From positions 1,736,001 to 1,800,000 of the forward strand of contig CP040678.1 in the NCBI GenBank assembly GCA_005954745.1: a stretch of 64,000 nt of DNA, written 5' to 3'. The translations under genes and the position numbers were made by a program. The DNA is from Halostella pelagica (lineage in GTDB: Archaea; Halobacteriota; Halobacteria; Halobacteriales; Natronoarchaeaceae). Below are positions 1-5,278 of the stretch, piece by piece. The notes beneath the pieces are model-generated. The model ran no database searches, was not told the origin of the DNA, and worked only from the letters and a program-made list of their open reading frames with translations. Position 1 is the first letter of the stretch. Each line of letters begins with the position of its first letter.

Positions 1-102
1 CGAGTGGACGAAACACAAATCCGAGACATAGAGCGCCTGACGTGCCACTGTCTACCACGACGCCGAGGAACTTATGCGGAGTCGCTGCGTAGTTTCGGTA
101 TC

Positions 103-1080
103 ATGATGGTCGGCCACGCGCTGCTCGCGTTCGCCTTGGTTTCCGGGACACTCTCCCTGGCCGGGCGCTCCCGCGAGCGAGCGCTCTCAGTCGGCCTCAT
201 CGCCGCCGGATTCGCCGTCGTCCCTGACGCGGACATGGTGTACGCCCTGGCCGGCCTCCTCGACGCGAACTACGATAGCGTCTTCTCGGTCACAGAGGCC
301 TTCTGGGAGACGAGCACGGTCGTCCATCGCTCAGTGACTCACTCGCTGGTCGTCGCGGTGCCAGCGGCGGTCGCGTTCGGGCTCTGGACGGCGGAGTCAC
401 GTGTCGTGCGCGCCAGTGCCGCCGCGCTGGCCGTTGCGCTCGTCACCGCCGCACACCTGATCACGGGTCCGCTCGCGGCGCTCGTGATGGTCGCGTTTCT
501 CGTCAGCGGATTCGTCGTCTCGTCGCTGGCGGATTCACAGGGGAAAGCTGGGCCGGTGACGGTCTTCGGGGCCGCAGTAGTCGGGATCTGGTCGCACCCC
601 TGGGGAGACATGTTCACCGGGGAGGCGCCGCACCTGTTCTACCCTCTTACCGATAGCGCCGCGGTCGAGCGCGTCGCACTCTCACCGGATCCGACGTTGC
701 ACCTGCTTGGCGCGTTCGGCCTGGAGATCGCGACGCTGTGGCTGGCCGCGCTGGTGTACTGTTATATTTCTAATATCTCTATCTCCGAGAACGTAAATCG
801 ACGGGCCGCGCTGGGCGTCGTTTACGGCGTCGCCGTGCTGGCGATAGATCCGCCGACGCTCTCGGTGTCGTACCAGTTCGTATTCAGTATCGTCGCCGTC
901 GGTATCCTCGCTGCGGTCCCGTTCAGTCGGGCGCGGCTTCGAACGCGATTCCCCGGCGATCTGAGCCTCCCGGACCGGATGACGACGCCGGAGGGGGTAC
1001 TGAGGGCACTGTTGACCGGTCTCGCCGGCCTCACTGCGGCATTGCTCGCGTACACCGCTGCGTACGTACTTTTCGTCTGA
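103..1080 (+). CDS. YdjM-type membrane metal-dependent hydrolase
   Basis: About 325 residues, predicted multi-pass membrane protein of the LexA-regulated YdjM (PF04307) family, putative metal-dependent hydrolases with unknown substrate. The family signature is visible: an N-terminal MVGHALLAFAL segment, an AVVPDADMVYAL aspartate motif near residue 40, VVHRSVTHSL near residue 70 and SHPWGDMFTGEAPHLFYPL further on. The rest is alternating hydrophobic helices. Two adjacent in-frame ATGs (103 and 106) precede the conserved start; an upstream GTG at 4 would add an unlikely Arg-rich tail. It stands alone before the membrane-protein pair at 1.2-2.5 kb. The family call is good; the reaction is unknown. 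Confidence 0.75.
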   Translation: MMVGHALLAFALVSGTLSLAGRSRERALSVGLIAAGFAVVPDADMVYALAGLLDANYDSVFSVTEAFWETSTVVHRSVTHSLVVAVPAAVAFGLWTAESRVVRASAAALAVALVTAAHLITGPLAALVMVAFLVSGFVVSSLADSQGKAGPVTVFGAAVVGIWSHPWGDMFTGEAPHLFYPLTDSAAVERVALSPDPTLHLLGAFGLEIATLWLAALVYCYISNISISENVNRRAALGVVYGVAVLAIDPPTLSVSYQFVFSIVAVGILAAVPFSRARLRTRFPGDLSLPDRMTTPEGVLRALLTGLAGLTAALLAYTAAYVLFV

Positions 1081-1241
1081 GCGCCGTCTGTGCGCGTGCC
1101 GTTTCCGAACGACCGATACGCCTCGGTTTTTTAAACAGATATTCCGAACCGGTTTCAGCGATAGTCTTGGTTCCCGCCATGACTGGATAATTACAATACC
1201 GCAACACCAACCTTTTACCCGTGACGGGTCCACGCAATGCT

Positions 1242-1859
1242 ATGGCAGACGCGGACATCGACATGCTGTTTCGCGACCGGCGAATCAACGCCGGTATCGC
1301 GTGGCTCCTCGTCGGGTTTCTGGGAGTGATAGCGGTCGTGGAACTAGTCGACGGCGAGTTCCTCTGGGCGGGGTTCGCGGCGACCGTCTGCGTGCTCTCG
1401 TTGCTCCCCATCGTCGCGTACAGGTCGGCTGAAGTGATGCTTCCCTGGGAGGTCGTCGCCGTCGCCGCGCTCCCGGTTCTCGGCCGCACGGTCGCGACAG
1501 TGCCGGTGACCGGGAACCTCGCAACGTACCTATCAGTCGCCGCTGTTGCACTCATCATCGCGGTCCAGTTGCAAGTGTTCACGTCGGTCGAGATGACGTA
1601 CGGGTTCGCAATCCTCTTCGTCGTCGTGACGACGATGGCCGCGGCCGGGACGTGGGCGGTCGTCCGGTGGGCCGCGGATATCCAACTCGGAACCGGATTT
1701 CTCGTCGGCTACGAAGACCCCGAATACGCGCTGATGATCGAGTTCGTCTACTCGTTCGTGGTAGGTATCGTCGCCGGCGTCGTGTTCGAACTGTACTTCC
1801 GCCGGAGAGTTGACACGCACGAACGGCTTCCTGAAGAGGTCGCGGAGGGGGTACAATGA
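1242..1859 (+). CDS. Multi-pass membrane protein of unknown function
   Basis: About 205 residues with roughly five to six hydrophobic stretches (for example GIAWLLVGFLGVIAVVELV near the N-terminus and FVYSFVVGIVAGVVFELYF near the C-terminus). I do not recognise a family. The ATG chosen here is preceded by a short GTG extension (1221) without conserved character. Its stop codon overlaps the ATG of the next gene in an ATGA arrangement, so the two membrane proteins are almost certainly co-translated and probably act together. No catalytic motif is visible. Confidence 0.75.
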   Translation: MADADIDMLFRDRRINAGIAWLLVGFLGVIAVVELVDGEFLWAGFAATVCVLSLLPIVAYRSAEVMLPWEVVAVAALPVLGRTVATVPVTGNLATYLSVAAVALIIAVQLQVFTSVEMTYGFAILFVVVTTMAAAGTWAVVRWAADIQLGTGFLVGYEDPEYALMIEFVYSFVVGIVAGVVFELYFRRRVDTHERLPEEVAEGVQ

Positions 1860-2521
1860 AACTACGCGACAGAGTCGGGATCTCGGAGAACCGGCAGGCA
1901 CAGATCACGTACGTCATGGAGATCGGTCTGGTCGTCCTCTTTTTCCTCGGGATGGAGCGCGGCAGCGTCGGCGTCATGGTCAACTGCGCGGTGGGTCTGG
2001 TCGTCATCCAGTTACCGCCCCTGCTCGAACGGGACTACGACGTTCCGATGGACCCCGCGCTGACGCTCTGGATCACGAGCGCCGCGTTCCTGCACGCGCT
2101 CGGGACGGTCGGCATTCCCGGTACGGGCGCAACGTTCTACCGATCGCTAGGGTGGTGGGACCACATGACCCACGCACTCTCCTCATCGCTGGTTGCGGGA
2201 GTCGGTTACGCAACCGTTCGTGCGGTCGAGGAACACAGCGACGACATCTATCTCCCCGACCGGTTCATCTTCGTGTTCATCCTGATGTTCGTGATGGCAT
2301 TCGGCGTGTTCTGGGAGGTCGTCGAGTTCGTCATCGCGGAAGTCGCGGATATCACCGGCGGCCCGCGCGTACTCACTCAGTACAGTCTCGAAGACACGAT
2401 GAAGGACCTCCTATTCAATCTGATCGGCGGCGTCATCGTCGCTATCTGGGGAACTGCCTACCTCACCGACATCGTCGGCGCTATCGAGGACCGTCTCGAC
2501 GCCCGTTCGGGGGCCGAGTGA
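1856..2521 (+). CDS. DUF2238/YjdF-like membrane protein
   Basis: 221 residues, starting in an ATGA overlap with the preceding membrane gene. It has several transmembrane stretches and the features expected of the YjdF/DUF2238 family: a WWDHMTHALSSSLVAG segment in the middle, a VFWEVVEFVI segment, and a C-terminal DTMKDLLFNLIGG segment. Conserved Asp, His and Glu residues lie near the membrane, but no biochemical function is established for this family that I can name. The coupling to the upstream gene suggests a two-component membrane complex. Family assignment is by motif recall only. Confidence 0.65.
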   Translation: MKLRDRVGISENRQAQITYVMEIGLVVLFFLGMERGSVGVMVNCAVGLVVIQLPPLLERDYDVPMDPALTLWITSAAFLHALGTVGIPGTGATFYRSLGWWDHMTHALSSSLVAGVGYATVRAVEEHSDDIYLPDRFIFVFILMFVMAFGVFWEVVEFVIAEVADITGGPRVLTQYSLEDTMKDLLFNLIGGVIVAIWGTAYLTDIVGAIEDRLDARSGAE

Positions 2522-2584: not shown

Positions 2585-4366
2585 ATGAACGGATGCGGGT
2601 CGAGCATTGGACGGCGCGAGTTGCTGGCTGGTCTCGGTACCGCGGCGGCCGCTGGTTCCGCCGGTTGCATCACGGACCTCTGGGCTAGCTCGGCTCGCGA
2701 TGCTCCACAGCAGATCTCGCTGAACGTCAAGACTCTCCCCACCGACGCCGACACTCCCTCGATCATAATCGCCCGACAGTTCGCCGAGCGCCTGCAGGAG
2801 GTCGGGATCAATGCGACCATCGAACCGAAGTCCGAAGTGGAACTGCTCCGGGACGTACTCCTCAATCGCGAGTTCGATATCTTTGTCACTCGGCACCCGG
2901 GGATAGAGAACCCGGACGAACTCTACTCGACGTTGCACTCCCTCTTCGTGGAAGAACAGGGGTGGCAGAATCCCTTCGGTCTCACGAACGTAACCCTTGA
3001 CAAGCAGTTACAGCGACAACGCACCTCGTCGGGGCGGACACGGGACGCATCCATCAAAAACGCCCTCCGAACTACCGTCTCGGTCCAGCCGTTTTCCGTA
3101 CTCACGTGTCCGGAGCATCTGACGGCAGTCGATATCGAACTCGCGACGACTTGGAACGTCACGAGTCTAAAGACGATGCTCGACTATCTCCGGATACGTC
3201 CCAAAGAGACCGCGTCTAACGACCTCGACACGCTTCGCGTCGCCCTTCTGAACTCCGAGGTGACCAAGAACCGGAATCCGATCGCCGTGGAGTATCACGA
3301 CCGGAACAACGTTCTGGGGCTGATCTACGACCAGATCGGTCGTAGGATCGACGGCGATGTCGAACCGTGGCTCGCTCACTCCTGGATGTGGCTGGACAAC
3401 CGCGACACGCCCACCGCCATCGTCAGACTCCGCGAGGACCTCACGTGGCACGACGGCGAAGCGCTCACTGCCGACGATGTCGCGTTTACCTTCGAGTTCC
3501 TCTCGGACACTTCGATGGGCGGTTCGAACGGCACGGTCCCAGCGCCGAAGTTCCGGTCCCAGTCAAGTCTCGTCGCCAACGCCGAGGCTCTCTCCGACAC
3601 CCGCTGTCGGATCGAGTTCGAACCGAGCAGCCGCGAGGTAGCCGCTACCGCGTTTACCGTCCCGGTGTTGCCCCGCCACGTGTGGTCGGAAGAAACAGAA
3701 CTGATTCAGGAGTACCTGACGCAGGCGATGGTCGACGAGAACCGCCAACCCGTCGGCAGCGGTATGTTTGCGTTCGACAGCGCCACGGCGGGTGAACAAC
3801 TCACCCTCCAGTCGTTCGACGACCACTTCCTCAGTCAGGAGCGAGAACAGGACCTCGAACCACCGGTCGAGCAGTTTGCCGGCGGACCGGCCTACGACAC
3901 GCTCGAATACATTGTCACGCCGTCAGGTGCGGCGGCGATCGAACTCATCGAAAACGACGAGATGGACATCGTCGGATCGACGCTCGATCCCGAAGACGCG
4001 CCACGTGCCAACAAGTCTGACTCGGTCCGCTTACTCACCGACAGTTCGAGCGAGTTTTACATTGCAGGGTTTAACGCCCGCAGGTCCCCCCTCACCAATC
4101 CGCATTTTAGACGGTGTCTCGCCCGACTGTTCGACCGCGAGCAGATCGCCGAAGACGTCTTCGACGGGTACGCCACCCCGGCTAATACGCCGCTCCACGG
4201 CACCGAATACGTCCCTTCGGATCTCGAATGGAACGGCGAGAGCGCGGTCGGCGCTTTCCCAAGTGAGAACGGAGACATGGACGTAGAGGCCGCAAAGCAA
4301 CTGTTTCTCGACAAAGGATATCGGTACAGCGACGACGGCGAACTCCTCAGTCAGGGACAGTCCTAA
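2585..4366 (+). CDS. Tat lipoprotein, SBP_5-type solute-binding protein, apparently circularly permuted
   Basis: 593 residues. The N-terminus carries a twin-arginine signal (GRRELLAGLG) and a lipobox ending at Cys28, so it is predicted to be exported by Tat and lipid-anchored. It belongs to the peptide/nickel-binding (SBP_bac_5) family, but the order of parts is unusual. Residues about 44-205 read like the C-terminal third of a normal family member (AERLQEVGINATIE, FDIFVTRHPGIENPD, QNPFGLTN). Residues 217 onward read like the normal N-terminal part (LRVALLNSE, VEPWLAHSW, LTWHDGEALTADDVAFTF at about 286-303). The protein ends with the normal DVEAAKQLFLDKGY junction. No permease or ATPase gene is adjacent, so it may serve a distant transporter or act as a receptor. 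Confidence 0.85.
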   Translation: MNGCGSSIGRRELLAGLGTAAAAGSAGCITDLWASSARDAPQQISLNVKTLPTDADTPSIIIARQFAERLQEVGINATIEPKSEVELLRDVLLNREFDIFVTRHPGIENPDELYSTLHSLFVEEQGWQNPFGLTNVTLDKQLQRQRTSSGRTRDASIKNALRTTVSVQPFSVLTCPEHLTAVDIELATTWNVTSLKTMLDYLRIRPKETASNDLDTLRVALLNSEVTKNRNPIAVEYHDRNNVLGLIYDQIGRRIDGDVEPWLAHSWMWLDNRDTPTAIVRLREDLTWHDGEALTADDVAFTFEFLSDTSMGGSNGTVPAPKFRSQSSLVANAEALSDTRCRIEFEPSSREVAATAFTVPVLPRHVWSEETELIQEYLTQAMVDENRQPVGSGMFAFDSATAGEQLTLQSFDDHFLSQEREQDLEPPVEQFAGGPAYDTLEYIVTPSGAAAIELIENDEMDIVGSTLDPEDAPRANKSDSVRLLTDSSSEFYIAGFNARRSPLTNPHFRRCLARLFDREQIAEDVFDGYATPANTPLHGTEYVPSDLEWNGESAVGAFPSENGDMDVEAAKQLFLDKGYRYSDDGELLSQGQS

Positions 4367-4432: not shown

Positions 4433-5278
4433 ATGGCACTAGCCGATGTAGTTTTGCGACTGACCGTCATGGTCGCTCTCCTGCTTAGTGTCGCCTCAGT
4501 CGCCCTCGTCGGTCCGCGGCGCATTTACCGTGCCCTCCGGGATTACCGCTGGCGTCTCGCCGACATCGGGCCATATCTGACGATACTGGTTCTCATCCTC
4601 GCTATCCGGAAATTAACTATGGACTATACGTCGGGGCTCTCCTGGTTGCTCGACCTGAACATCACGGCGTCTATCTACAGCCTCGAAGGCACGCTGGTCG
4701 CCGACGTCCAGTCGATACGATCGCCGATGCTAACTGATTACTTCGTGTTCATCTACCTCTACGGCTACGTCTTCCTGTTAGTGTTCCCGTTTATCGCTTA
4801 CTTCGTGCGAAGCGACATGACCTCGATGAAAGAACTCATCGTGGCCTACGCGTTCAACTACGGCGTCGGTCTGATCTGCTACGTCCTCTTTATCGCATTC
4901 GGTCCTCGGAACCTGATTCCGGACATCGTCGACTCGCTCCTCTACGTCACGTATCCGCAGTCACAACTGCTCACCGGCGAGGTGAACCACAACACCAACG
5001 TCTTCCCCTCGCTTCACGCCTCGCTAGCGACGACGGTGTTCCTGTTGGCGTGGCGCACCCGCGACCAGTACAGGGCGTGGGTCCCCATCTCGTTCGTTCT
5101 CGCCGTCAGCGTCTCGATAGCGACGATGTATCTCGGCATCCACTGGGGAACGGACGTCGTCGCCGGCACCATCCTCGCCGTAATAAGCATCTCCGTGGCC
5201 GAGTACGTCGTCTCGCGGGACATGCTCGCCGGCTGGGGGCCGTTCGACGAGGAGTGGAACCTGTTCGACCGAGCGTAA
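4433..5278 (+). CDS. PAP2-family membrane phosphatase/phosphotransferase
   Basis: 281 residues, multi-pass membrane protein of the PAP2 superfamily. The catalytic signatures are visible: [11 protein letters not shown] (the PSGH-like motif) and [14 protein letters not shown] (His nucleophile with HxxxD). The long N-terminal half with several helices resembles the inositol-phosphorylceramide synthase/Aur1-like subgroup (PAP2_3) rather than a simple lipid phosphatase. Likely substrates are phospholipid or isoprenoid phosphates at the outer face of the membrane; the exact one cannot be told. It is followed closely by the dodecin gene with its own putative promoter. Confidence 0.85.

Follow-up and report, generated by a model that had tools for sequence, protein, structure and literature searches.

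We found that a gene of Halostella pelagica almost certainly encodes, to judge from its sequence and those of its relatives, a full-length solute-binding lipoprotein of the SBP_bac_5 family (cluster C, DppA/OppA-like) whose chain has been circularly permuted. The gene occupies positions 2585 to 4366 of the window, that is, of the whole 64,000-nucleotide stretch of DNA that was analyzed. By sequence, its new termini are opened just before the strand at about residue 341 of mature Escherichia coli DppA. Its partner, which an earlier sequence-only reading had not connected with it, is a PAP2-type membrane phosphatase (4433-5278) that is linked to it across the order. The two genes and their predicted parts are listed below.

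2585..4366 (+): circularly permuted SBP_bac_5 Tat lipoprotein, 593 aa, ATG start, open reading frame (ORF) intact
2585..2668 (+): Tat signal with twin arginines at residues 10-11 (R10 R11) and lipobox SAGC ending at Cys28, read from the sequence
2669..2713 (+): tether between Cys28 and the first strand, fixed in length (15-16 residues in 25/25 aligned members)
2714..3199 (+): moved segment, residues 44-205, equivalent to the canonical SBP_5 C-terminal third (canonical HMM ~367-505)
3200..3232 (+): linker, residues 206-216, joining the ancestral C and N termini (9-82 residues in homologues)
3233..4363 (+): residues 217-593, ancestrally the N-terminal and middle parts of the chain (canonical HMM ~41-366), with the new C terminus ...AAKQLFLDKGYRYSDDGELLSQGQS
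4433..5278 (+): PAP2_3-type integral membrane phosphatase, 281 aa, 66 bp downstream of the solute-binding protein (SBP) gene; conserved partner

SBP_bac_5 was the sole Pfam family matched by the window protein (155.7 bits against a cut-off of 32.4). The match ran from residue 259 to 586 and corresponded to profile positions 2 to 285 of 368, with the end of the profile (about 80 positions) absent. By itself, the segment from residue 44 to 205 reached profile positions 292 to 355 with 15.9 bits, which is under the cut-off. When we rotated the protein so that residues 206-593 were followed by residues 44-205, there was a single Pfam stretch across profile positions 2 to 354, and the score rose from the native value to 169.1 bits. 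For a control rotation in which the moved segment was reversed, the score was 143.1 bits and the match ended at profile position 288. The rotated protein also aligned to residues 83 to 493 of Bacillus subtilis AppA (1xoc), uninterrupted across the joint. Among the PDB chains listed, none aligned in permuted order, the top-scoring stretch always being the canonical part. AlphaFold2, run from a two-sequence input, returned a model of the window SBP with a pLDDT of 31 and a pTM of 0.22.

We also constructed a hidden Markov model (HMM) out of 33 SBP_5 proteins of canonical order. Each of the five canonical proteins listed gave one colinear match. The window protein departed from the canonical N-to-C order of segments, giving two inverted matches: residues 50-158 corresponded to HMM positions 374-477, and residues 227-586 to positions 56-366. 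The same inverted two-part order was found in 30 of 32 clade members, the exceptions being one frameshifted protein (L003) and one weak match (L077). It was also found in all 14 proteins of a second permuted group (10/10 sister proteins and 4/4 further proteins, three from Alphaproteobacteria and one from a haloarchaeon). The permuted proteins shared a breakpoint, with the N-terminal piece starting at HMM position 367 and the C-terminal piece ending at 363 (medians). Matches of the moved region to the C-terminal part of the canonical HMM had iE values reaching 4e-14 among clade members and 8e-24 among sister-group proteins, and the coverage of the two pieces was complementary. In a sister-group protein, residues 202-522 aligned to DppA 1-340, which puts the cut site near DppA 340. 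All regions of the SBP_bac_5 profile were present in the window protein (2-285 and 292-355, inverted), as was every main canonical part (HMM ~41-505). An independent Pfam scan of genomes likewise recovered the inverted order inside single ORFs, for example in a 556-aa ORF of genome G024 with profile positions 270-365 before 3-261. Full-length homologues kept the order of the window protein at 37 to 68% identity, and order and termini were unchanged across 25 aligned clade members.

The inverted HMM matches and the constant breakpoint across relatives argue for a fixed circular permutation rather than a truncation or an added domain. The sequence-only reading had placed the C-terminal third ahead of the N-terminal part, which it began at residue 217, and both the canonical HMM and Pfam bear this out (residues ~44-205 before ~217-593). 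Its further claim, circular permutation instead of truncation, is upheld by the rotation gain with its control, the AppA alignment, the HMM matches in both groups, the ORFs of other genomes, and the homologues. It is extremely improbable that an unrelated domain stands in front of a truncated SBP_5 protein with no permutation at all. The moved segment of the window protein is weak when scored alone (15.9 bits), which speaks for such a domain, but the canonical C-terminal HMM region is matched there in 30/32 and 14/14 proteins with complementary coverage. The match is moreover lost in the reversed control, and the idea is thus already refuted at the sequence level. Truncation was ruled out because the two pieces complement each other along the HMM in dozens of homologues. 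Assembly error or frameshift was rejected too: the ORF is intact, and the same order recurs in independent genomes.

The window SBP carries a predicted export signal and a predicted membrane anchor, given by its Tat twin arginines and lipobox cysteine. Among 25 aligned homologues, Cys28 was invariant and the twin arginines were conserved in at least 90%. The distance from Cys28 to the first strand was 15 or 16 residues in every aligned clade member (25/25) and 11 to 36 residues in the sister group. So constant a tether suggests that the geometry above the membrane is fixed. The linker between the old termini varied from 9 to 82 residues across homologues; in one homologue (L074:6355-8379, +), it comprised about 80 residues of low-complexity D/G/S/T/N sequence. 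On the published topology of DppA, the new termini of the permuted SBP would fall in lobe II. We infer from that topology that the lipid anchor would have moved from lobe I, where canonical SBPs carry it, to the other lobe.

The sequence-only reading had proposed counting homologues with the same order in other haloarchaea. We surveyed 293 Halobacteriales genomes with tblastn, taking a hit at E <= 1e-36 as presence of the clade and counting from the resulting table. The clade was present in about 173 of them, with full-length, colinear homologues. Among 393 genomes of the phylum, the matches listed outside Halobacteriales covered the middle region only, with none over the N-terminal part, and viral contigs held no relative. 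A homologue is also carried by two plasmids of Haloferax gibbonsii. In trees of the rotated full sequences and of the middle segment alone, permuted and canonical proteins were split by one branch (SH-aLRT 99); these trees were unrooted and came from a quick search, with the canonical set sampled from one archaeal phylum. The permutation is old, and the split and the common breakpoint favor a single origin. In the rotated full-sequence tree, the alphaproteobacterial members fell among the sister group, which suggests transfer between domains. Outside Halobacteriales, genome G323 encodes a 779-aa SBP_bac_5 protein (L145:4296-6665, +) in which profile positions 150-353 come first and 28-133 later. 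This protein ends in a PGF-CTERM anchor; its apparent permutation differs from that of the window protein and may have arisen independently, with anchoring at the C terminus.

The second permuted group differs from the window clade in being linked to ABC permease and ATPase genes and in having no PAP2 gene. Its sister proteins (L060-L069) were about 24% identical to the window protein, with the same permutation and breakpoint. Both permease genes lay directly downstream in 10/10 loci, and at least one ATPase gene followed the permeases in 9/10; L063 had two ATPase genes upstream instead. Plasmid members (from Nitratireductor, Ketogulonicigenium, and Roseomonas, and from Natrononativus) had the same layout, with a pair of permease genes plus one or two for ATPases. 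Members of this group are annotated plainly as ABC transporter substrate-binding proteins. Because the sister group adjoins Dpp-type ABC transporter genes, the permuted form can evidently belong to an ABC importer, and permutation is no bar to transport. At L063 (7185-13111, -), in genome G006 of the same genus, two genes that by eye resemble Mg-chelatase-type AAA ATPases lie between the SBP and the upstream ATPase genes, a hint that the substrate could be a metal or a corrinoid. The three bacterial plasmid loci (L110-L112) place a permuted SBP_5 gene in ABC operons; two of them adjoin genes for hydantoinase/oxoprolinase and for peptidases, a hint that the substrate could be a cyclic peptide or resemble oxoproline.

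The window clade has lost the association with ABC genes and is fixed beside a PAP2_3 gene. In the window genome, no PF00528 permease gene was present within about 13.8 kb of the permuted SBP gene, and all five canonical SBP_5 genes were within about 5 kb of such genes. The window SBP has no adjacent Dpp/Opp permease and ATPase genes, and a search aimed at permease clusters of the sister-group type found none in 31/31 window-clade loci. The absence of an adjacent transporter, noted in the sequence-only reading, holds for the window clade and fails for permuted SBPs as a class, since the sister group sits beside ABC genes.

The partner gene scored 63.7 bits against PF14378 (cut-off 27) and was also over the cut-off for PF01569; it reached no specific equivalog in NCBIfam. 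Its motifs GPRN, PSLH, and HW..D were invariant among 24 PAP2 sequences, and on the strength of these catalytic motifs, the protein is probably active as an enzyme. It shares PSLH and HW..D with the PAP2_3 superfamily (PgpB-like), from which it differs by its genetic tie to an SBP. Of 31 fetched loci, 27 had the PAP2 gene next to the SBP gene in the same orientation, and four lacked it there (L042, L043, L049, and L076). Across 150 listed SBP genes, it was immediately downstream of at least 108, with a median gap of 26 bp. We counted co-occurrence by eye from two survey tables, with a strong PAP2 hit defined as E < 1e-45. All 171 genomes with a strong hit fell within the 173 SBP genomes, leaving two SBP genomes without PAP2 (G015, which is 76% complete, and G186). 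At two loci, the genes stood in tandem as SBP-PAP2-SBP-PAP2 (L057:7603-12949, +; G219:C3:852716-858015, +), the pair being duplicated as a unit. Linkage and co-occurrence show that the SBP and PAP2 are functionally related, not that they are in physical contact.

Neighbors other than PAP2 varied by lineage and gave no clue to the substrate; the arylsulfotransferase, PMT_2-like, GcvP, GSDH, and COX1 neighbors were not conserved. At L113 (4161-5579, -), L114 (3367-4818, -), L049, and L070, the permuted SBP has arylsulfotransferase-family genes upstream of it in divergent orientation, and PMT_2-like membrane proteins are encoded near them in these lineages. Upstream of the SBP gene in the window (4-2521, +) are genes for a YdjM-like membrane protein (PF04307), another membrane protein, and a weakly DUF2238-like one; some of these gene types recur beside the SBP-PAP2 pair in the same genus.

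What the pair does can be read in more than one way. The permuted SBP could feed a remote ABC importer, with PAP2 linked for another reason, for example because it dephosphorylates an extracellular substrate whose product the SBP then captures for import. We regard this as rather unlikely. It accords with the SBP_5 fold family, with the canonical SBP_5 genes that lie near permeases in the same genome, and with the ABC-linked sister group. It fits less well with the lack of a PF00528 gene within some 13.8 kb and with a PAP2 linkage that is order-wide while the sister-type permease is absent from 31 loci; a shared permease would not in itself lead one to expect an association with PAP2. Lipoprotein SBPs can also serve as sensors. 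The permuted SBP might accordingly be a ligand sensor or receptor that regulates, for instance, another membrane protein and takes no part in catalysis or import, a role that would suit the fixed tether and the lack of a nearby transporter. This reading is improbable: genes for transducers or kinases were not seen recurring beside the SBP, and the sole conserved neighbor is an enzyme whose catalytic motifs are intact.

We instead favor, tentatively, a module that dispenses with a transporter. By sequence, the ancestral termini were joined via a short variable linker and new termini opened near DppA ~341; the constant 15-16-residue tether would hold the SBP at a fixed height above the membrane. 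There, at the outer face, the SBP may capture a ligand that is phosphorylated or linked to a lipid, and present it to the adjacent PAP2, or regulate PAP2, instead of delivering it to an importer. We give this overall mechanism, in which SBP and phosphatase form a module on the outer side of the membrane with no transporter, somewhat less than an even chance; we infer its physical interaction, its ligand, and its absence of import. With a little more reserve, we propose that the re-anchored SBP and PAP2 might form a haloarchaeal two-gene module acting as a binding-protein-dependent surface phosphatase or phosphotransferase. We know of no description of an SBP used with a PAP2 phosphatase in place of an ABC importer.

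The window protein shares all main parts with SBPs of the DppA/OppA/AppA type (SBP_bac_5, cluster C) and is, by prediction, a Tat lipoprotein. It differs from them in being permuted, in lacking an adjacent ABC permease, in its moved anchor, and in its PAP2 neighbor. The nearest published parallel is TpMglB-2 (Tp0684) from Treponema pallidum, a lipoprotein SBP of another family that is likewise circularly permuted; the class "Type Ic / Cluster Bc" has been proposed for it (PMC4990184). Its authors raised tethering as a possible reason for the permutation (PMC4990184). Both proteins are membrane-tethered, circularly permuted lipoprotein SBPs. TpMglB-2, however, is a bacterial, sugar-binding protein of cluster B/type I, with another fold class and cut point and a proposed role in an ABC importer; the window protein, matching SBP_bac_5 alone in Pfam, has no homology to type I/cluster B sugar-binding proteins by that measure. 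In the open papers searched, which include few subscription journals, no permuted SBP_5 protein and no SBP-PAP2 pair was described; the sole permuted binding proteins to emerge were TpMglB-2 and others with engineered or half-domain permutations. A preprint on detecting circular permutations did not mention SBPs. The earlier statement that no description was known stands for SBP_5 proteins within those papers; another SBP class has been published as permuted.

With this clade, the permuted SBPs already published as a class gain a cluster C counterpart. Annotation pipelines label the permuted proteins as ordinary ABC substrate-binding proteins despite their different chain order, and the window clade, present in more than half of the sampled haloarchaeal genomes, is apparently without a dedicated transporter. 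The permuted clade is a natural experiment on shifting the membrane anchor of a binding protein. It points to an order-wide, uncharacterized SBP-phosphatase pair that is genetically testable in Haloferax.
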